From: Rhodocyclaceae bacterium
GTDB lineage: Bacteria > Pseudomonadota > Gammaproteobacteria > Burkholderiales > CAIKXV01
Length of the DNA stretch: 64,000 nucleotides
Reading direction: 5' to 3'
Assembly: GCA_020248265.1 (NCBI GenBank)
Contig: JADCHX010000010.1
Location: 1-64,000 of the forward strand
Position numbers and translations under genes: made by a program. Of this stretch, positions 7,448 through 18,842 are shown piece after piece; position 1 is the first letter of the stretch; every line of letters starts with the position of its first letter. The notes beneath the pieces are model-generated. The model did no database searches. It saw nothing but the letters and a program-made list of their open reading frames with translations, and was not told the DNA's origin.

Positions 7448-8809
7448 ATGACACCGGCGCAGGCACCGATGCAGGCACCAGCGCAGGTGACGTTCGCGGA
7501 GGCGCTCCGCTTCTGGTTCAAGCTCGGCTTCATCAGTTTCGGTGGCCCGGCGGGCCAGATCGCGTTGATGCATGCCGAACTGGTCGAGCGCCGCCGCTGG
7601 ATCAGCGAGCAGCGGTTCCTGCACGCGCTCAACTACTGCATGGTGCTGCCGGGGCCGGAGGCCCAGCAACTGGCGACCTACATCGGCTGGCTGCTGCACC
7701 GGACCTGGGGCGGCATCGTCGCCGGTGCGCTGTTCGTGCTGCCTTCGCTGCTGCTGCTGATCGCGCTGTCCTGGATCTACGTGCGCTTCGGCGAACAGCC
7801 CGTGATCGCCGGGCTGTTCTACGGCATCAAGCCGGCAGTCACCGCGATCGTGCTGCATGCGGCGTGGCGCATCGGCAGCCGGGCGATCGCGAACCGCTGG
7901 ATGGCAGGCATCGCCGCGACGGCCTTCGTGGCGATCTTCGCACTGGATGTACCGTTCCCGGCGATCGTTGTCGCCGCCGCGCTGGTCGGCCATTTCGGCG
8001 CGCGGCGCTGGCCGGGCGTGTTTGCGCTCGGCGGAGGCCATGCAGCCGGGAAGAAGGGCTATGGTCCGGCGCTGATCGACGACGACAGCCCGCGGGCGAT
8101 GCACACGCTGTTCACCCGGTCGCGGCTCGCGCTGGTGCTGGCGGTCGGCGGCGGGCTGTGGGTGGCCGCGATGGCGATCCTGCTGGCCCTGCATGGCTGG
8201 GACGGAACGCTCACGCGGATGGGCTGGTTCTTCACCAAGGCGGCGCTGCTCACCTTCGGCGGCGCGTATGCCGTGCTGCCCTACGTGTATCAGGGCGCGG
8301 TCGAGCACTACCAGTGGCTGACCCCGACGCAGATGATCGACGGGCTTGCGCTCGGCGAGACCACGCCGGGCCCGCTGATCATCGTCGTCGCCTTCGTCGC
8401 GTTCATCGGCGGCTGGTCGGCGCAGGTCGCGGGAGACGCTGCGCCGTTCCTCGGCGGGGCGCTGGCGGCCGTAGTGGTCACCTTCTTCACGTTCCTGCCC
8501 TCGTTCATCTTCATCCTCGCCGGCGGGCCGATGGTCGAGGCCACGCGCGGTCGGCTCGGCTTCACCGCGCCGCTGTCGGCGATCACCGCGGCGGTGGTCG
8601 GCGTGATCGTCAACCTCGCGCTGTTCTTTGCGTACCACGTGTTCTGGCCGAAAGGCTTCGCGGACGCCTTCGATCCGGCTGCAGCACTGATCGCCATCGC
8701 GGCTGGGGTCGCGCTGTTCCGTTTCAGGGTCGGCGTGTTGCCCCTGCTGGCGGGGTGTGCGGCGGTCGGCCTTGCGTTCAGCCTGCTGCGGCCAGTGCTC
8801 GCCGGCTGA
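7448..8809 (+). CDS. chrA: Chromate transporter ChrA (CHR family)
   Basis: This encodes a 453-aa membrane protein of the long, two-domain CHR type. Each half starts with the family motif: FGGPAGQIALM with LPGPEAQQLATYIG in the first half (about residues 35-80), and FGGAYAVLPYV with ETTPGPL in the second (about 270-310). There are about 10-12 hydrophobic segments. CHR proteins export chromate using the membrane potential, giving resistance. No chrB or other resistance gene is adjacent and the gene stands alone. The 224 bp between it and the Bug gene show no further gene. Confidence 0.9.
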   Translation: MTPAQAPMQAPAQVTFAEALRFWFKLGFISFGGPAGQIALMHAELVERRRWISEQRFLHALNYCMVLPGPEAQQLATYIGWLLHRTWGGIVAGALFVLPSLLLLIALSWIYVRFGEQPVIAGLFYGIKPAVTAIVLHAAWRIGSRAIANRWMAGIAATAFVAIFALDVPFPAIVVAAALVGHFGARRWPGVFALGGGHAAGKKGYGPALIDDDSPRAMHTLFTRSRLALVLAVGGGLWVAAMAILLALHGWDGTLTRMGWFFTKAALLTFGGAYAVLPYVYQGAVEHYQWLTPTQMIDGLALGETTPGPLIIVVAFVAFIGGWSAQVAGDAAPFLGGALAAVVVTFFTFLPSFIFILAGGPMVEATRGRLGFTAPLSAITAAVVGVIVNLALFFAYHVFWPKGFADAFDPAAALIAIAAGVALFRFRVGVLPLLAGCAAVGLAFSLLRPVLAG

Positions 8810-8870: not shown

Positions 8871-10538
8871 TCAGGCTTCGATGCGGCGCGTCACGGCCCG
8901 CGTCTCGCCGAAGGTCGGCACGTAGACCGAGTGCGTACCCGGCCCGCCGGCCACGACGATGCCGACATCCTCTGGCGAGCGCGACAGTGGTACCCGCGTG
9001 GACCGGTCGAATCCGGGCAGCTCGCCCAGGCGTGCATTGCGCGTCCTTTCGTAGTCCCGCTGCGCGAACTCGCCGGCCACCATCATCGACTGCTCCCACA
9101 GCATCCGCCGGACGGCCGCCTTGTCGTAGCCATGCCTGGCCATCACCGCGGCATGCTCCGGCGACAGAATCATCCAGGGCTCGCCGCAGTAGTGATAGTC
9201 GTTGCTGGCCGGGTACGCCATCGAGCGTGCCAGACATGCAAGCAGTTCGTCGGCATCCTTGCTGTGCGTGTTCAGGTTGAGCGTGCCCGATGCAGCAACC
9301 AAAGTGACCGCGTCGTCGCCCGTCGCGAAACCGCGGTCGGCATGCAGCGGCGCCCATGGACTGGCGGCTTCGTTCTCGGCACAGCAGAACAGGAACTTGC
9401 CCGGCTGGCCGTGGGTCGCGCGGTCCATCTCCGCTGGCCATGCACCGCCGATGTTCTGCATCACCAGCCGCAGCGCACGGCCCAGCGTCGCGTTTGGCAG
9501 GTTGCCCTGCCCGAGGCAGTTGATGCCAGCGTTCATGCCGAGCGCCAGCGCGATCGGCCCGTTGACGATCAGCCAGGTCGTGACCGGGTTGGTGGTCGAC
9601 TGCACGGCCTGCAGGTTGAACGCCGGATCGGCGGCGGCCTCCACCGCGGCGATCAGCACCGGCAGGTGGGCAGGCAAGCAACCGGCCATCACCGCATTGA
9701 CCGCGATCAGCTCGACGGTGGCTGCACCGAAGCCGGGAGCGAGCGTCGCGACGACCGCTGTCGGCGCCCGGCGGCTGCCGGACAGCATGCGGGCGACGCG
9801 TGCTGGCGTCGGCGGGATCACCGGCAGGCCGTCACTCCAGCGTCGGTCGCTGCAGGCCTGGTGGAAGGCTTCGATATCGGCGGGCAGTTCGATCAGCCTG
9901 CCATCGGCCGCGCCGGCCGCTGGCGTAGCGCCGATATGCGACCCCGCCCGTGCCGCGCCAGCGACTGCGGCGAGACGTACCGTCTCGGCGATACGCTCGG
10001 CCAGTGTTTCCGCTAGCGCTGCGACCTCTTCGCGCGACCGCGACCCGAACGGATGCTCGATGATCAGCAGCGGCTGGTCTGGCGCACCGAGCGCCTTGGC
10101 CTGGGCGCGCGCGAGGCCGCCGAATGCCGTGGAGCACACGCTGATTCCGAACGCGCCGCGGCGGCCGATCGAAACGGAGTCGTGGACACTCCACGACGCG
10201 CAGGACCCTCAGTCGCCAGAGCCGCTGATCACCACCATGCTTTCGGACGCCATCCGGTCGAGCACTGAAGGATCGGCACCGATCGACGCATTCGGCTTGC
10301 GGTGCCGCAGCACCCGCGCCACGCCATGCCTGGACAGCAGCAGTTGCTCGAGGTCGTCCGCGAGGAGCGAGAAGTTGGGCTTGGAGTTGTCGATGAAGGC
10401 GACCGTCGCACCGGCGAGCGATCCGGTGAACCGTGCCGCTGGCGCGTGGACGGCTGCATGGCTGGGCGCGAGTGGATCGAGCACGGCCAGCATTGCACCG
10501 CCGCTGCCGGTCGCGCTGCTGTCGGGGATGACGGACAT
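8871..10538 (-). CDS. UGSC-motif selenoprotein with long C-terminal domain (in-frame TGA read as Sec110)
   Basis: One continuous frame runs from ATG 10538 (preceded by AAGGAAG) to 8871, interrupted only by TGA at 10211-10209. Reading TGA as selenocysteine gives 555 aa with the redox motif Sec110-Gly-Ser-Cys113 in the context GSGDUGSCASWSVHD. The homologous-looking sequence continues after the TGA (VCSTAFGGLARAQAKALG, then PDQPLLIIEHPFG), so the two halves are one domain. A SECIS-like hairpin follows at once. UGSC proteins are a recognised (seleno)protein family in marine and soil bacteria; their reaction is unknown to me. Residues about 200-555 form a second domain I cannot assign. Without readthrough the product would be 109 aa. 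The divergent neighbour encodes MmgE/PrpD. Confidence 0.8.
10179..10197 (-). promoter_or_regulatory. Bacterial SECIS-like hairpin
   Basis: On the minus strand, 11 bases after the TGA codon (10211-10209), GUCGUGGA and UCCACGAC form a perfect 8-bp stem around a GUG loop (or 7 bp around AGUGU). A bacterial SECIS needs a stem just 3' of the UGA with a G near the start of the apical loop about 16-37 bases away; here the loop begins about 19 bases from the UGA. It lies inside the coding sequence, as is normal for SelB-dependent readthrough in bacteria. Confidence 0.7.
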
Positions 10539-10633
10539 CGGTCTTCCTTCGGTAATCGGGCAACGTAAAAAGACGCATCGTTCGAGCGGAAGCTATCATA
10601 ACCACTGCTCGTTACCCCGCCTGGAGATGCACG

Positions 10634-12107: not shown

Positions 12108-13082
12108 TCACTCTGCCTTGGCGCCCGACGCCTTCACCGCCTTTGCAAAGGTGACCGTCTCGGCAGCGATCAGCCTGGCCAGTTCCGCCGGCGTACCGCC
12201 GCCGGGTTCGAACCCGAGCCCGATCAGGCGCTCGCTGACATCCGGGAGCCTGAGCACGCGGCTGATCTCTTCGCTGAGCTTGCGGACGGTCGCCTGTGGT
12301 GTACCCGCCGCCGTCATCAGCCCGACCCAGTTGCCCAGCACGAATCCCTTGACGCCCTGCTCTGCGAAGGTCGGGACGTCCGGCATCCATTGCAGCCGCT
12401 TCTCGGACATCGCACCGATCACGCGCACCTTGCCAGTCTTCACCGCCGGCCACAGTTCCGGCACCGCGTTGGAGATGACGTGCACCTGCCCGCCGATCAG
12501 GTCGGCTGCGGCTGGGGCGGCGCCCTTGTAGGGAACATGCACGCCCTCGATACCGGCGGATACCTTCAGCATCTCCATCGAGAGGTGGCTGATCGCACCA
12601 ACGCCGCCCGAGCCGTAGACCATCTTGTTCTGCTTCGCCCACGCGATGAGTTCGGGTACCGTCCTGATCTGGAGCGTGCCGCTGACCGCCGTGATCAGCG
12701 GCGAGCTTCCGAGGTAGACAACCGGCGTCAGGTCGCGCGAGAGGCTGTAGCCGAGCTTCGGATAGAGCGACTGCGCGATCACGTGCGCGGTGCTGATGTT
12801 GAGCAGCGTATAGCCGTCGGGCGCAGCCCGGGCGGCGACCTCGGCACCGACATTGCCGCCAGCCCCCGGCCGGTTGTCGACGATCACGGGCTGCTTCCAG
12901 GACTCGGTCAGCTTCTGGGCGACCACTCGTGCAAGCAGATCGTTGATGCCGCCGGGGGCGAAGGCCACCACGTAGCGGATCGCGCGCTCCGGATAGGCCT
13001 GGGCGACGGCCTGGCTCGCGGCAGACAGCGCCAGGGCGCCCCCTGCCAGCCCTGCTAGTGCACTGCGGATCGGTGCTTTCAT
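12108..13082 (-). CDS. Bug/TctC-family periplasmic solute-binding protein
   Basis: This encodes 324 aa. The ATG at 13082 is chosen because it begins a clean Sec signal (MKAPIRSALAGLAGG, cleaved after AVAQ); the frame is open further upstream without signal-like sequence. Bug signatures are FAPGGINDLLAR and VDNRPGAGGNVGAE. It is the last gene of the minus-strand operon running from hyuA at 18842, 49 bp after the racemase-like gene, so it probably binds the substrate that the hydantoinase-like and isomerase-like enzymes process. No TctAB partner is present. Confidence 0.88.
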   Translation of the reverse strand: MKAPIRSALAGLAGGALALSAASQAVAQAYPERAIRYVVAFAPGGINDLLARVVAQKLTESWKQPVIVDNRPGAGGNVGAEVAARAAPDGYTLLNISTAHVIAQSLYPKLGYSLSRDLTPVVYLGSSPLITAVSGTLQIRTVPELIAWAKQNKMVYGSGGVGAISHLSMEMLKVSAGIEGVHVPYKGAAPAAADLIGGQVHVISNAVPELWPAVKTGKVRVIGAMSEKRLQWMPDVPTFAEQGVKGFVLGNWVGLMTAAGTPQATVRKLSEEISRVLRLPDVSERLIGLGFEPGGGTPAELARLIAAETVTFAKAVKASGAKAE

Positions 13083-13131: not shown

Positions 13132-13902
13132 TCACGCCGACATGCGTGCAAGCGGCGGCATCTTCGCCGGCTTGCCTTCGGTAAAGGCGAGCGAGCGCAA
13201 CAGGCTACCGCAGTCCACGATCTTCGGGTCAACGCCCATCGCGCGGTAGGCCTGCCAGGCCGACGCCTGCACAGCCGAGTAGACCGGCTTGCCCAGGTCG
13301 CGCTCGAGCATCTCGAGCACTTCGAGGGCGCGCAGCTGCGTACAGGCGACGAACACCGCCTGCGAATCCGGCGTCGTCATCTCCTTCACCTTGCGGTAGA
13401 TCTCCTCCGGCAGCACCTTGGCATGGTCGAACATGTCCAGCATGTCGAAGGTTCCCAGCTTGGTCGTGGTAATGCCATAGGCGCTGGCGAACTGCTTCAA
13501 CCGTTCGTTGGTCAGTTCGACATAGGGTGTCACCACGTCGACCTTCTTCACACCGTTGTCGGCGAGGCAGGCGACCATCGCGCCGGCCGTGGTGACGGTG
13601 GGTGCCTTCGTGATCTCGGTCAACTGCTCGCAGATGCGGTCGTTCCACTCGGGACCTTCGAAGAAGCTGCCGCTGGTGCAGCCATAGACGACCACGTCCG
13701 GCTCGACCATCGCCACTTCGCTCGCCGCATGCTTGCTGGCCTGCTCCATGTTGCGCAGTTCCTCTGGCGTGCCCTCGCGGCCACCCGCGATGCGCGCGGT
13801 ATGCACCGACACGCCTGGCGGCGCGATACGCCAGAACTCGGTCTCCATCGTGGTGTTGATCGACGGAACCAGCAATCCGATCCTGCCTCTCCATCCGTAC
13901 AT
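13132..13902 (-). CDS. Asp/Glu racemase superfamily enzyme (maleate isomerase / arylmalonate decarboxylase-like)
   Basis: This encodes 256 aa from ATG 13902, which has AAGGAG eight bases upstream. The two-domain racemase fold is suggested by a catalytic Cys in each half: VVYGCTSGSF (Cys75) and VFVACTQLRA (Cys187). This matches maleate cis-trans isomerase, which uses a Cys pair; arylmalonate decarboxylase keeps only one. N-terminal IGLLVPSINTTME is also maleate-isomerase-like. It lies between the PLP enzyme gene and the Bug gene, so it probably acts on an intermediate of the same pathway. Isomerase versus hydantoin racemase stays open; HyuA/HyuB upstream makes a racemase role conceivable. Confidence 0.8.
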   Translation of the reverse strand: MYGWRGRIGLLVPSINTTMETEFWRIAPPGVSVHTARIAGGREGTPEELRNMEQASKHAASEVAMVEPDVVVYGCTSGSFFEGPEWNDRICEQLTEITKAPTVTTAGAMVACLADNGVKKVDVVTPYVELTNERLKQFASAYGITTTKLGTFDMLDMFDHAKVLPEEIYRKVKEMTTPDSQAVFVACTQLRALEVLEMLERDLGKPVYSAVQASAWQAYRAMGVDPKIVDCGSLLRSLAFTEGKPAKMPPLARMSA

Positions 13903-13963
13903 GGAATTACTCCTTCTCGACAATGGTCACTTGCGGGGTGCTGCGTGCGGGATGCCGCGCGTC

Positions 13964-15121
13964 TCAGAGGCGCGCGGCAAGGGGATCCAGCGTGCGCGCT
14001 GACAGTCCGAGCGCCTTTCCGATCATCTCCGAGGCCTTCAGTCCGGTGCCGGTGAGAACCGCCACCGTCGTCTCGCCCGGCCGGATGTCGCCCGCATCGA
14101 GCAGGTGCCCGAGCGCCGCGCCGACCGAGGCGCAGGTCGGCTCGACATAGAACCCCATGCCGGCCAGCGTGCGCAAGGCCGCGACGATCTCGTCCTCGCC
14201 GACCGACAGGATGCGGCCACCGGACTCGCGCACGGCGCGCAGGATCGAGCGGCCACGCGTCGGGCGCTGCGACGCGATGCCTTCGGCAAGCGTCGGTACC
14301 GGCACGATGTCCTTGTAGTCTTCCAGGCCCTCGTCGAACGCCTGCGCCAGCGGCGACACGTTGGCCGCCTGCACGCCGAAGATGCGCGGCATGCGGTCGG
14401 TTTCTCCGGCGCGCATCAGCTCGGCGAAGCCGCGCTCACAGCCGAGCACGTTCGCACCGTAGCCGACCGGGACGATCACGTTGTCCGGCAGCCGGAAGCC
14501 GAGCTGTTCCCAGAGCTCGTAGGCCAGCGTCTTGGTGCCCTCGAGGAAGTAAGGCTGCCGGTTGTGGCTCGCGTAGAACATCGACGAGGCTTCGCGCAGT
14601 GCGGCGTCGGCCACATCCTGCCGGGTGCCGGTCACCGCCACCACGTCTGCTCCGTGCGCGGCCATCTGGGCGATCTTCGGATAGGAGGCCGTTGCCGGCA
14701 CCATGATCCGGCAGCGCATCCCGGCTGCGGCGGCATAGGTCGAGAGCGACGCGCCGGCGTTGCCGGACGAATCCTCGAGCACGTCCGTGATGCCATGCAG
14801 CTTCAGGTAGCTCACCATCGCAGTCATGCCGCGGTCCTTGAACGAACCGGTCGGCATCACGTACTCGAGCTTCCACAGCAGCTCTACACCCTTCCACGAC
14901 CTGGGCAGCAGCGGCGTCCAGCCCTCGCCCAGCGTGACAGCACCTTCGTACGGCACGGCCATCGCGGCGGCATAACGCCACAGGGAGCGGCGAGACGGAT
15001 CGATCCGGTCGCGCGTGATGCCTGGACACGTTTCCAGGTCGACGCCGTTGCCGTCGTCGGACTGCCAGCGTGGCATGTCGGACGGGTAGCGCTTCCCCGT
15101 GACGATATCGACGTAGTTCAC
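13964..15121 (-). CDS. PLP-dependent threonine-synthase-like enzyme
   Basis: This encodes 385 aa from a GTG at 15121 whose last bases form the TGA of hyuB (GTGA overlap). It is a fold-type II PLP enzyme: TGSFKDRG carries the cofactor lysine (Lys95), DSSGNAGASLSTYAAAAG is the Asn-containing substrate and phosphate loop (about 118-135), and the C-terminal part holds a conserved glycine-rich segment. The N terminus has no zinc-finger cysteines and is shorter than biosynthetic threonine synthase. Its place in a HyuA/HyuB operon suggests a catabolic lyase or dehydratase on a beta-substituted amino acid instead of threonine biosynthesis; that is inference. Confidence 0.8.
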   Translation of the reverse strand: MNYVDIVTGKRYPSDMPRWQSDDGNGVDLETCPGITRDRIDPSRRSLWRYAAAMAVPYEGAVTLGEGWTPLLPRSWKGVELLWKLEYVMPTGSFKDRGMTAMVSYLKLHGITDVLEDSSGNAGASLSTYAAAAGMRCRIMVPATASYPKIAQMAAHGADVVAVTGTRQDVADAALREASSMFYASHNRQPYFLEGTKTLAYELWEQLGFRLPDNVIVPVGYGANVLGCERGFAELMRAGETDRMPRIFGVQAANVSPLAQAFDEGLEDYKDIVPVPTLAEGIASQRPTRGRSILRAVRESGGRILSVGEDEIVAALRTLAGMGFYVEPTCASVGAALGHLLDAGDIRPGETTVAVLTGTGLKASEMIGKALGLSARTLDPLAARL

Positions 15122-16794
15122 TGCGCCGGCTCCTTCGGCGACCGGTCTTCCCGCTGGTCGCGCTCGCGTGCCGCCGGCGCGCGTGCAGCCGGATCGCCGA
15201 AGCCCCCGCCGCCCGGCGTGCAGACACGCAGCACGCTGTCCCGGGGCAATCGGACATCCGCTGCGGCCGACGGCAGCACGCGCTCGTCCGCACGGCCCGG
15301 GTTGAACACGAAGCGCCCGCGCAACCCAGGCTGGCCACCCTTCATCCCCTCGGCTTCGACATGCTGTCGCTCCGACGAAAGGCTGACCACGATGTCGTCG
15401 CCCAGTACCCGATAGTCGCGGATCACGCCCATGCCGCCGCGATACTCGCCCTCGCCCCCGGAGCCTTCCCACAGCGCATAGCGATCGACGCGGAACGGAA
15501 ACGCATGCTCGAGCGCCTCCACCGGGAGGTTCGACGCGCCCGACGCGTGCACGCGAACCGCGTCCATGCCGTCGCGGTTCGAGCGCGCGCCCATGCCCCC
15601 TGCCACGGTCTCGTAATTGACGAAGTAGGTGCCGCTGCGCGGATCGCGGCCGGCCAGCACCATCAGGTGGTGCGGCCCGCTGGGCGCCAGCGCACGCACC
15701 GGCAGCGCCTGCGACAGCGCCTTGGCCACGACGTCGCCGAGCACCCCGCAGGAGATCGATCGGCAGCCGACCGCGGCTGGCGACTGCGGACCGACCACGC
15801 TGCCCTTCGGTGCAGCCGTGGTGATCGTCCGGTAGTAGCCGGCATTCGCAGGTACGTCCGGATCGAGCAGGCTCTTGGCGACCGTGTAGATCGTCGCCAG
15901 CAGCGCGCGCTCGGGGATGTTGCGCGCCGATTCGAGCTGCTTCGCGGAGCCGGCGAAATCGAAGTGCAGGCGGCCACCCTCGATCGTCATCGCCAGGCGG
16001 ATCAGCGCGCGCTCGCCCTCGGCATTGCCGTCGAGGCAGTCCTCGGCATGGTAGGTACCCGCCGGCAGCCGCGCGATCGCTGCGGCAAAGCGGCGCTCGG
16101 TGAAGTCGAGGTAGCCGGCGATCGTGCGCGCGGTCTCTTCCGGACCGTAGCGCGCGATCAGCGTCTCGACGGCGCGCGTACCAACCAGGTTCGCCGCGAA
16201 CTGCGCGCGCAGGTCGCCAAGACGCTCGTCCGGCGTGCGCGAGTTGAGCAGCACGATGTCGAGCACGTCGCGGTTGATCTCGCCGCCACGCATGATGCGC
16301 ACCGGTGGCAGGCGCAGCCCTTCCTGGAAGATCGAGTTGCAGACCGCTGCCTCGCTGCCGGGCACCATGCCGCCGACATCGGCGTGGTGCGCGATGTTAG
16401 CGACGAAGGCGACGATCTCGCCACCGATGAACACCGGCGAGATCACGTTGATGTCGGGCAGGTGCGAGCCGCCGCCGTTGTACGGGTCGTTGGCCATGAA
16501 CATGTCGCCCGGCAGGATGTTCTCGCGACCGTAACGCGAGAGTATCTCGTCGACCGCACCGACCATCGAGCCGAGGTGAATCGGCACCCGCTGCGCGAGC
16601 GCGATCACCTGGCCCTGCGCATCGAAGATCGCAGTGGAACAGTCGGCACGCTCCTTGATGTTCGGCGAGAAGGACGTGCGCATCAGCGTCGCACCCATCT
16701 CTTCCGCGGCGGCGAGCAGGTATCGCGCCATCACCTCGGCACGGATCGGATCGGGCGCCTGTACGGGCGCCCCCGGCTTGCGTTCATTGCTCAT
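15118..16794 (-). CDS. Hydantoinase B / oxoprolinase beta-subunit family protein (HyuB)
   Basis: This encodes 558 aa from ATG 16794, overlapping the hyuA stop (TGATG). It has the family's metal-binding segment NDPYNGGGSHLPD (about residues 102-114), ISCGVLGD in the middle, and GGEGEYRGGMGVIRDYRV towards the C terminus. HyuB forms a complex with HyuA and performs ATP-dependent hydrolysis of cyclic amides such as hydantoins or 5-oxoproline, or carboxylation in the related acetone carboxylases. No third acetone-carboxylase-type subunit is seen, which favours the hydantoinase/oxoprolinase branch. Confidence 0.9.
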   Translation of the reverse strand: MSNERKPGAPVQAPDPIRAEVMARYLLAAAEEMGATLMRTSFSPNIKERADCSTAIFDAQGQVIALAQRVPIHLGSMVGAVDEILSRYGRENILPGDMFMANDPYNGGGSHLPDINVISPVFIGGEIVAFVANIAHHADVGGMVPGSEAAVCNSIFQEGLRLPPVRIMRGGEINRDVLDIVLLNSRTPDERLGDLRAQFAANLVGTRAVETLIARYGPEETARTIAGYLDFTERRFAAAIARLPAGTYHAEDCLDGNAEGERALIRLAMTIEGGRLHFDFAGSAKQLESARNIPERALLATIYTVAKSLLDPDVPANAGYYRTITTAAPKGSVVGPQSPAAVGCRSISCGVLGDVVAKALSQALPVRALAPSGPHHLMVLAGRDPRSGTYFVNYETVAGGMGARSNRDGMDAVRVHASGASNLPVEALEHAFPFRVDRYALWEGSGGEGEYRGGMGVIRDYRVLGDDIVVSLSSERQHVEAEGMKGGQPGLRGRFVFNPGRADERVLPSAAADVRLPRDSVLRVCTPGGGGFGDPAARAPAARERDQREDRSPKEPAQ

Positions 16795-18842
16795 CACTGG
16801 ACCTCGCCAAGCATCACATGCAGGTTTCCGGCGTCGTCGATCCGACAGCGCGCCGACGGCGGGATCACCGTGGTCGCATCCATCTGTTCCACGATCGCCG
16901 GTCCGTCGAACGCCATGCCCGGAACGAGGTGCGATCGATCGTACACCGGCGAACGCACGTAACCGCCAGCCGGGAACCAGACGTCGCGGCTGCCCGGCGT
17001 CCCGACCGGCGCCGATGCCACCGCCGAGAATGACGGCCGCGGCCGTGGCACGGTCAGCGCGAGGCGCAGGTTGACCAGTTCGACCGCCTGGTCGCGTATG
17101 TCGTAACCGTAGTACTCGCGATGGCGCTGGTGGAACGCCTCGACCAGCGCGGCCACCGAAGCTTCATCGAGCGATCCGCCCGACAGCGGCAAAACCAGTT
17201 CGAAGCTCTGGCCGACATAGCGCAGGTCGGCACTCCATTCGGACACCGAAGCGCCAGCGTCGGCGCGCTCCTCGGCCAGCCACGCCTCGCCGCGGCGGCG
17301 CAGTTCGGCGAAACCGGCATCGATCGCGCGCAACTGCGCCGGTGCGAGCACCACCAGCCGGGTCAGGCTGAAGTCGCCACGCTGGTCGGCCTGCAGCAGC
17401 CCTTCGGCAGACAGCAGCCCGGGCCGCGCCGGCACCAGCACATGGCGCATGCCCATCGCCATCGCGACTTCCACCGCATGCAGCGGCCCCGCCCCGCCGA
17501 AGGCGACCAGCGCGAAGTCGCGCGGGTCCTCGCCCTGCTCGATCGAGATCACGCGTACTGCGCCCATCATGTTCACGTTGACGATCTCGACCACGCCAGC
17601 GGCGGCCTGTACCGGGTCGACACTCAACTTGCGCGCAAGGTCTTCGACGGCTTCGCGTGCCTTGTCCGGATGCATCTTCATGCGGCCACCGAGCAACGAC
17701 TCGGGGCTCAGGCGGCCGAGCACGACATTGGCATCGGTGACCGTGGGCTCCGTGCCACCACGCCCATAGGCGGCCGGCCCCGGATATGCACCGGCACTGC
17801 GCGGGCCGACCTTGAGCAGCCCGCCGGCATCGATCCAGGCGATGCTGCCGCCGCCCGCGCCTATGGTGTGGATGTCCAGCGTGCGCGTACGCACGGGATA
17901 GCCACCCATTTCCCGCTGGCTCTTCTTGGCCGGCTCGCCGTCCTTGATCAGGCACACATCGGTGCTGGTGCCGCCCATGTCGAAGGTGATCAGGTTGGGC
18001 AGGCCGATGCGGCTGCCGAGGCGGGCACTGCCGATCACCCCGCCGGCCGGACCGGAGAAGAAGGTGTTGATCGGCAGGCGCTTGACCGCAGCTGGCGTCA
18101 CCGCACCGCCGTTGGACTGCATCACCCGCGGCGTGCGCGGCACGCCGAGTTCGCGTACGCCGGCCTCGAAGCGGTCGAGGTAGGTCGCCATGATCGGCAT
18201 CAGGCTGGCGTTGACAAGCGTCGATGCGCAACGCTCGAATTCGCGGAACTCGGCCAGCACTTCGTACGACGCGCAGACTGCGGAACCGGGCCAGGCAGCC
18301 TCGATGATCGCGCGCGCGCGCGCCTCGTGCGCCGGGTTCTGGTACGAGTGCAGGAAGCAGATCGCGACCGACTGCACGCCAGCCTCCTTCAGCGCGGCCA
18401 CCGCCGCATGCACGGTCGACTCGTCGAGCGGCGTGACCACGCGGCCTTCGACGTCGATGCGCTCGCTCACCTCCAGCCGGCAGTCGCGCGAGGCCGGCGG
18501 CACCGGCTTGACCTTGTCGAGGTTGAAGTAGTCGGGGCGCCGCTGCCGCGCGAGTTCGATCACGTCGCGGAAGCCGGCCGTGGTGACGAGTCCGGTCTTC
18601 GCCCACTTGCCCTCGAGCACCGCGTTGGTCGCCAGGGTCGTGCCGAGCACGAGGAATGCGACGTCGGCTGCGGCCACACCCGACAGGGCGAGCAGTTCGC
18701 GGATGCCGTCGTGGATGCCAGCAGCGGGGTCCGCGGTGCGCGTCGGGACCTTGTGGTACTCCCAGCGGCCGGCGGAAGGTTCCGCCAGCACCAGGTCGGT
18801 GAACGTGCCACCGGTGTCGATGCCAATCCAGTATCCAGCCAT
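16794..18842 (-). CDS. Hydantoinase A / oxoprolinase alpha-subunit family protein (HyuA)
   Basis: This encodes 682 aa with the actin/ASKHA-fold ATPase signatures GIDTGGTFTD (residues 7-16) and FDMGGTSTDVCLI (about 285-297), plus IGAGGGSIAW and VAFGGAGPLHAVEVA. In this family HyuA binds ATP and activates the cyclic amide carbonyl for HyuB. First gene of the operon hyuA-hyuB-PLP enzyme-isomerase-Bug receptor, with overlapping coding regions. It starts 120 bp from a divergent LysR gene, the likely regulator. The true substrate (hydantoin, oxoproline or another lactam) is not determinable here. Confidence 0.92.
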   Translation of the reverse strand: MAGYWIGIDTGGTFTDLVLAEPSAGRWEYHKVPTRTADPAAGIHDGIRELLALSGVAAADVAFLVLGTTLATNAVLEGKWAKTGLVTTAGFRDVIELARQRRPDYFNLDKVKPVPPASRDCRLEVSERIDVEGRVVTPLDESTVHAAVAALKEAGVQSVAICFLHSYQNPAHEARARAIIEAAWPGSAVCASYEVLAEFREFERCASTLVNASLMPIMATYLDRFEAGVRELGVPRTPRVMQSNGGAVTPAAVKRLPINTFFSGPAGGVIGSARLGSRIGLPNLITFDMGGTSTDVCLIKDGEPAKKSQREMGGYPVRTRTLDIHTIGAGGGSIAWIDAGGLLKVGPRSAGAYPGPAAYGRGGTEPTVTDANVVLGRLSPESLLGGRMKMHPDKAREAVEDLARKLSVDPVQAAAGVVEIVNVNMMGAVRVISIEQGEDPRDFALVAFGGAGPLHAVEVAMAMGMRHVLVPARPGLLSAEGLLQADQRGDFSLTRLVVLAPAQLRAIDAGFAELRRRGEAWLAEERADAGASVSEWSADLRYVGQSFELVLPLSGGSLDEASVAALVEAFHQRHREYYGYDIRDQAVELVNLRLALTVPRPRPSFSAVASAPVGTPGSRDVWFPAGGYVRSPVYDRSHLVPGMAFDGPAIVEQMDATTVIPPSARCRIDDAGNLHVMLGEVQ

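Follow-up and report, generated by a model that had tools for sequence, protein, structure and literature searches.

The window analysed here, a stretch of 64,000 nt, carries on its minus strand (10538 to 8871) a reading frame of 556 codons, i.e., 555 residues plus a terminal TGA, whose sole internal stop is a TGA at codon 110 in the context GSGD-U-GSC, where U is the TGA read as selenocysteine (Sec; Table 1). Mechanical ORF prediction breaks this frame into pieces of 109 aa (10209..10538) and 422 aa (8871..10139, from a GTG start), exactly as the first-pass annotation had described the frame, its coordinates and the lengths of its two parts. Despite this apparent stop, the product of the gene is almost certainly a single long protein that contains selenium. 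Among the stop codons of the window TGA is also the most frequent, closing 23 of 33 long non-overlapping frames, and thus does not code for a residue at every occurrence. A gene for a chromate efflux transporter family protein (7448-8809, plus strand; TIGR00937, 232 bits) converges on the selenoprotein gene, and on the minus strand at 13132-16797 a run of genes matches, below cut-off, EutA/arylmalonate decarboxylase, threonine synthase and caprolactamase subunit beta, with a Bug-type binding protein gene beside it (12159-12995). Rfam at gathering score found one tRNA only in the window; a 92-nt tRNA-Asp at 18484-18575 (plus strand), reported by ARAGORN and not by Rfam at gathering score, is possibly spurious. 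A phage search gave no match.

Table 1. Features of the gene and of its predicted product, in positions of the window.
Feature	Position	Strand	Remark
Complete gene, almost certainly of a selenoprotein	8871..10538	-	ATG at 10538, terminal TGA at 8873-8871, 555 residues
Shine-Dalgarno-like purine-rich stretch 5' of the ATG	10541..10550	-	by eye only
UGSC domain, residues 19-186	9981..10484	-	Pfam PF24696
TGA codon 110, very probably read as Sec	10209..10211	-	homologue comparison: TGA conserved, Cys in others
Cys113, second residue of UxxC	10200..10202	-	unchanged across alignment A2 (36 sequences)
Predicted bacterial SECIS hairpin	10179..10197	-	7-bp stem, AGTGT loop starting 18 nt after the TGA
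Partner domain, residues ~211-555	8874..9908	-	without Pfam or NCBIfam hit
Cys287 of partner domain	9680-9678	-	invariant in 38 members

The Pfam model for the UGSC domain, PF24696, runs across the TGA as a single match with 140.5 bits (E 8e-41; Pfam cut-off 25 bits), the two halves alone reaching 53.6 and 34.9 bits, which bears out the earlier claim that domain sequence continues unbroken over this codon. With the NCBIfam equivalog model NF041046 the protein scored 108.6 bits, below the cut-off of 125, and it is therefore a member of the Pfam family only and not of the equivalog. The UGSC membership put forward in the first-pass annotation accordingly holds at the Pfam level, far above the cut-off, and fails at the equivalog level; UGSC itself was recognized there, whereas a separate second domain making up about two thirds of the protein went unmentioned. 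A marine survey from 2008 (PMC2398784) already reported the UGSC family, with 255 Sec forms vs 21 Cys forms and Sec thus far commoner, as well as a fusion of UGSC to a domain termed 'Unknown_1' (Figure S1A). The C-terminal domain of the window protein likely is this 'Unknown_1'. The window gene, taken singly, thus joins an already described family, and fusions of its type have been known since 2008; what is added here are the kinship to PrdB/GrdB, the regular partner domain and the large UGSC families in relatives.

We conclude with very high confidence that TGA codon 110 is decoded as Sec. The window genome (4.55 Mb, 33 contigs, 98% complete) possesses the selA, selB, selC and selD functions whose presence had been named as a check: selA, selB and the Sec tRNA are consecutive on its contig C12, and SelA (580.5 bits), SelB (432.4 bits), tRNA-Sec (72.9 bits) and SelD (412.8 bits) all exceed their cut-offs, with selD carrying one in-frame TGA of its own. 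All six UGSC matches of this genome contain exactly one TGA. Among 300 genomes of the same order the family was matched in 37, in 34 of them above its cut-off. The list of best matches, which scores no more than 11 per genome and omits weaker ones, has 150 entries; 149 of these contain exactly one TGA, while the remaining match (G140:C44) is free of stops and reads TGC (Cys) in place of the TGA. Among the loci fetched first, TGA occupied the Sec column in 100 of 100 UGSC hits covering it, a count that includes redundant loci and excludes two partial hits ending short of the column. Plasmid records, of which 24 matched, supplied homologues from other lineages: in seven plasmid-borne loci the codon was TGC or TGT in six, namely in the haloarchaea Natrinema, Halalkalicoccus and Halorientalis, the actinomycete Embleya, Variovorax and Neorhizobium, and TGA in Acidovorax sp. 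T1. The expected alignment of Sec110 with Cys was thereby obtained, and a stop codon other than TGA was seen at this column in none of the homologues read. A weaker UGSC match (G002:C58:725-1198) contains a TAG and no TGA and might be a Cys form whose TAG is the normal end of the gene; in a Paracoccus relative the Sec column displays W, under a code that translates TGA as W.

The distribution of the Sec machinery follows that of the family, since selA accompanies above-cut-off UGSC in 32 of 34 genomes and occurs in 55 of the 266 others (Fisher p = 1.8e-17); the two UGSC genomes lacking a selA hit are 97% (G103) and 84% (G104) complete. Moreover, six genomes (G059, G131, G169, G211, G240 and G263) have a UGSC gene no more than ~1.3 kb away from selA, and in G059 and G211 the gene for the partner domain sits between the two. 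Fetched loci yielded 66 in-frame UGSC/partner pairs, 60 of which exceed 470 aa and contain a single internal stop; without near-copies 49 remain. The six others were dropped as too short or not having exactly one stop, one of them containing a run of N. It is very improbable that the TGA is a true stop and that two proteins are made, of 109 aa and, from the internal GTG, of 422 aa: the longer ORF does have this possible start and many genomes encode UGSC and partner separately, but the break would fall within the UGSC domain and not between the two domains, residues 111-133, conserved in homologues, would go untranslated, and both the conservation of TGA, with Cys in other homologues, and the presence of the Sec machinery speak against it. 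Less credible still, to the point of being negligible, is a sequencing error or a recent nonsense mutation giving rise to a pseudogene, as the assembly is indeed a draft, but the same TGA recurs in homologues from other assemblies down to ~30% identity and in all five remaining UGSC genes that the window genome has. The partner residue of Sec110 in the UxxC motif, Cys113, is replaced by Ser in two paralogues of genome G140. A fused homologue of 575 aa on a Sporomusa termitida plasmid (L133, 4305-6029), which adjoins flavoprotein genes, seems by eye to have neither Sec or Cys nor the second Cys at the motif and is possibly a non-redox member.

Decoding of codon 110 as Sec would employ a hairpin that begins 14 nt past the first base of the TGA. 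In the bacterial SECIS model given in a recent review (PMC13188914), the apical loop lies 16-37 nt after the UGA and has a G in one of its first two positions, and the window hairpin agrees with this model in loop distance and sequence (Table 1). Standard pairs fill 97.6% of the stem cells in 83 distinct sequences (stretches with N and repeats dropped) vs 17-61% in slid controls, and G stands at loop position 2 in 82 of the 83. Changes occur on both sides of the stem, the loop-closing pair being G-C in 73 sequences and C-G in 9, and a Sec paralogue of G140 has A-T in place of G-C. In this genome, locus L165 (G140:C44:5000-12600) comprises three adjacent UGSC units: a Sec paralogue that has the hairpin, a Cys paralogue that lacks a matching hairpin and whose second Cys is changed to Ser, and a unit reading UGSS; the locus offers a natural Sec-to-Cys comparison. 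Compared with synonymous recodings, the Sec stretches gave a mean z of only -1.74 (n = 74), with 12 of the 74 reached by three or fewer of 300 recodings, so that the hairpin is partly imposed by the peptide; the six Cys homologues ranged from -1.07 to +1.14. Since the GC-rich stretch 3' of the terminal TGA also folds strongly (-27.2 vs -18.0 for the hairpin), the folding energy by itself is not decisive. In a UGSC-rich genome of the order, G293, the hairpin was predicted and recognized by eye at the expected place in 27 of 30 loci and was absent from L137, L161 and L164. In another locus (L167; G131:C47:16000-23500), where divergent UGSC genes flank selA on both sides, a different, GC-rich hairpin lies 3' of the TGA.

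The C-terminal partner domain is a regular companion of UGSC, fused to it in the window and encoded by a separate neighbouring gene elsewhere. Polynucleobacter kasalickyi VK13 and P. rarus (L064, L067), for instance, possess a UGSC gene of the TGA type that is adjoined by a gene for the partner. The loci that were fetched contain 145 distinct UGSC genes; for 139 of these the partner was found within 600 nt and on the same strand, downstream in 122 cases and upstream in 17, and the remaining six UGSC genes lie near a sequence end. Most of these loci were fetched with the whole protein, so that the sampling favours the pair; loci fetched by the UGSC model alone also have the partner, namely all 30 of G293 and the six of the window genome. 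Neither Pfam nor NCBIfam matched residues ~211-555 of the window protein, and 38 diverse partner members gave merely scattered weak family hits. In these 38 sequences 16 columns are invariant, including Cys287 in VMAGC and an N-x-x-x-G-R motif. PrdA and GrdE are the pyruvoyl partner subunits of GrdB/PrdB-type reductases; the partner profile reached E 0.55 against PrdA, represented by three sequences only, and an assignment as PrdA-like pyruvoyl subunit is thus unsupported. Solved structures were searched by sequence and by profile, the queries being the complete protein, each of its two domains and a PrdB-like relative, and nothing credible was returned; the best match, thioredoxin reductase 4jnq to the partner part (E 0.019 and 0.032), is too weak to use.

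The family is greatly expanded in relatives of the window organism. G293, a 5.7-Mb genome of the same order that is 98% complete and has 2% contamination, contains 58 UGSC matches, some of them fragments, 54 with an internal TGA (51 with that stop alone, three with a further TAA or TAG) and four without. In each of the 30 loci fetched from it (L135-L164) the codon at the Sec column is TGA; no two of them reach 90% identity, and since best identities are 33-77%, they look like paralogues and not like strain duplicates. Seven further genomes hold 14-26 UGSC matches each, four of these matches being weak and below the cut-off, and selA is present in all eight UGSC-rich genomes.

As regards the origin of the UGSC domain, profile comparison suggests that it is probably a remote relative of PrdB and GrdB, the selenoproteins of D-proline and glycine reductases, with the UxxC motifs in register. 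UGSC against PrdB gave E 1.4e-5 and a probability of 80% over 71 columns with the motifs aligned, whereas the controls gave E 0.11 (reversed), 0.14-0.85 (15 column shuffles) and at best 0.032 (17 other alignments). With five PrdB-like sequences only, the probability was 10% (E 0.003), and it rose to 80% once true PrdB sequences had joined the profile; PrdB alone gave E 1.6e-5 and the PrdB-like Cys proteins alone E 0.0019. In direct scans, 12 of 81 aligned UGSC members matched glycine reductase selenoprotein B (best E 0.0018) and one matched PrdB (E 0.0006), but these matches alone are weak; unrelated-looking families came up there at comparable E-values (S-methyl thiourocanate hydratase, 0.0017 in eight members; NAD kinase, 0.014 in 12). 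The window protein had no GrdB or PrdB match at E 1, and the best scores among ten relatives, 19.3 bits for TIGR04483 (cut-off 300) and 17.3 for TIGR01917 (602.2), missed the family cut-offs. Two UGSC proteins place their Sec at position 148 of the PrdB model, their matched stretches being equal in length. The PrdB genes of Peptoclostridium, Ligilactobacillus and Terrisporobacter carry a TGA of their own at codon 151 in the context AG-U-GTC, and Enterococcus PrdB has Cys instead of Sec. Proteobacterial PrdB-like proteins of ~300 aa (L122-L126, L132) show CPVC or CPIC at the place of UxxC; one of them, from Roseomonas, is annotated as selenoprotein B family and adjoins SelO.

Gene neighbourhoods were compared for 40 non-redundant UGSC loci, retained after loci with a near-identical core had been dropped. 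Bug-type solute-binding proteins occur in 30 of them (67 ORFs in 433 kb, 28 within 300 nt); the window alone has six in 64 kb, so that the excess over the local background is modest, and 15 other loci had none in 49.5 kb. MmgE/PrpD occurs in six of the 40. When 103 of the 109 listed neighbours were searched (six left out), they matched 67 Pfam families, the commonest of the 25 families listed again being MmgE/PrpD, in seven neighbours; no substrate emerged from the 40 loci or from this search. The haloarchaeal pairs have varying neighbours, among them CoA transferases, enoyl-CoA hydratases, TRAP/tricarboxylate transporter proteins and RraA-like proteins, and the Cys-type pair of Variovorax lies near a thioredoxin reductase gene (trxB). 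Taken together, these neighbourhoods point to the catabolism of small carboxylates without singling one out. That reductive cleavage within such catabolism is the role of UGSC is conceivable, if somewhat doubtful.

Overall, we favour as the probable reading one Sec protein of 555 residues with a PrdB/GrdB-like UGSC domain and the partner domain, which may cooperate in a reductive cleavage. Following this, we propose that SelB with Sec-tRNA would bind the hairpin 14 nt past the first base of the UGA and that Sec would be inserted at position 110, yielding a single selenoprotein, with Sec110 and Cys113 occupying the place of the UxxC of PrdB/GrdB. The Sec selenolate may then attack an electrophilic carbon of a small carboxylate-type substrate, which the partner domain could help to hold, so that a carbon-heteroatom bond would be cleaved reductively, and in the last step the resulting Se-S bond with Cys113 would be reset by a thiol donor such as thioredoxin. 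This scheme draws on the chemistry of proline and glycine reductases, which is described in part in PMC13188914. It is unlikely, in our estimation, that the Sec protein instead passes on disulfides as a general thiol oxidoreductase of the thioredoxin-like kind, the partner serving as target or scaffold. The UxxC motif and the trxB gene near the Variovorax pair would suit such a function, and the authors of the 2008 survey considered a thioredoxin-like fold likely for UGSC (PMC2398784); however, none of the 10 Pfam and 25 NCBIfam families matched by the 81 members of alignment A1 at E 0.1 is a thioredoxin (one of the 81 matches AhpD at 0.052), whereas PrdB/GrdB models do match and the profile comparison backs them. 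Dozens of paralogues next to catabolic genes would also be better accounted for by substrate-specific enzymes.

The PrdB/GrdB-like reading of the fused protein turns 'function unknown' into a testable chemistry. As a tentative generalization, to which we give not quite even weight, UGSC and its partner may form a third class of PrdB/GrdB-like, Sec-dependent two-component reductases that diversified within a betaproteobacterial order into dozens of catabolic paralogues, each specific for its substrate, with 14 to more than 50 selenoproteins of one family per genome of 4.5-6.8 Mb, outside the lineages that PMC13188914 names as most enriched. In the library searched, no paper treats UGSC together with Burkholderiales, and no priority is claimed. 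Standard annotation splits such genes or loses part of them: on the Acidovorax sp. T1 plasmid, whose gene table is known to be incomplete, the sole annotation under the UGSC gene is a hypothetical CDS of 291 nt. If the UGSC-rich genomes are as they look, a whole enzyme family with tens of genes per genome is being misread. Additionally, the partner domain, common yet matched by neither Pfam nor NCBIfam, is a target in its own right, and UGSC provides a natural series on the retention of Sec, with TGA in nearly all of the order's listed matches vs Cys in three haloarchaea.

In comparison with known systems, the window protein shares with the UGSC family (PF24696/NF041046) the same domain and the same Sec-bearing UxxC motif, and differs from NF041046 by its score below the equivalog cut-off and by its additional C-terminal domain. 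The UGSC/Unknown_1 fusion of the marine survey (PMC2398784) likewise joins a UGSC selenoprotein to one conserved domain of unknown function. With 54 TGA-bearing UGSC matches, G293 alone comes near the largest bacterial selenoproteomes, which number 57 and 63 according to the 2026 review, where the most enriched lineages are mainly anaerobic (PMC13188914). The UGSC relatives score far below the cut-offs of PrdB (TIGR04483) and GrdB (PF07355, TIGR01917/TIGR01918), but share with both a U-G-T/S-C motif followed by a GIPT-type stretch, and PrdB and GrdB, like UGSC, work with a second protein, PrdA adjoining PrdB in the loci viewed.
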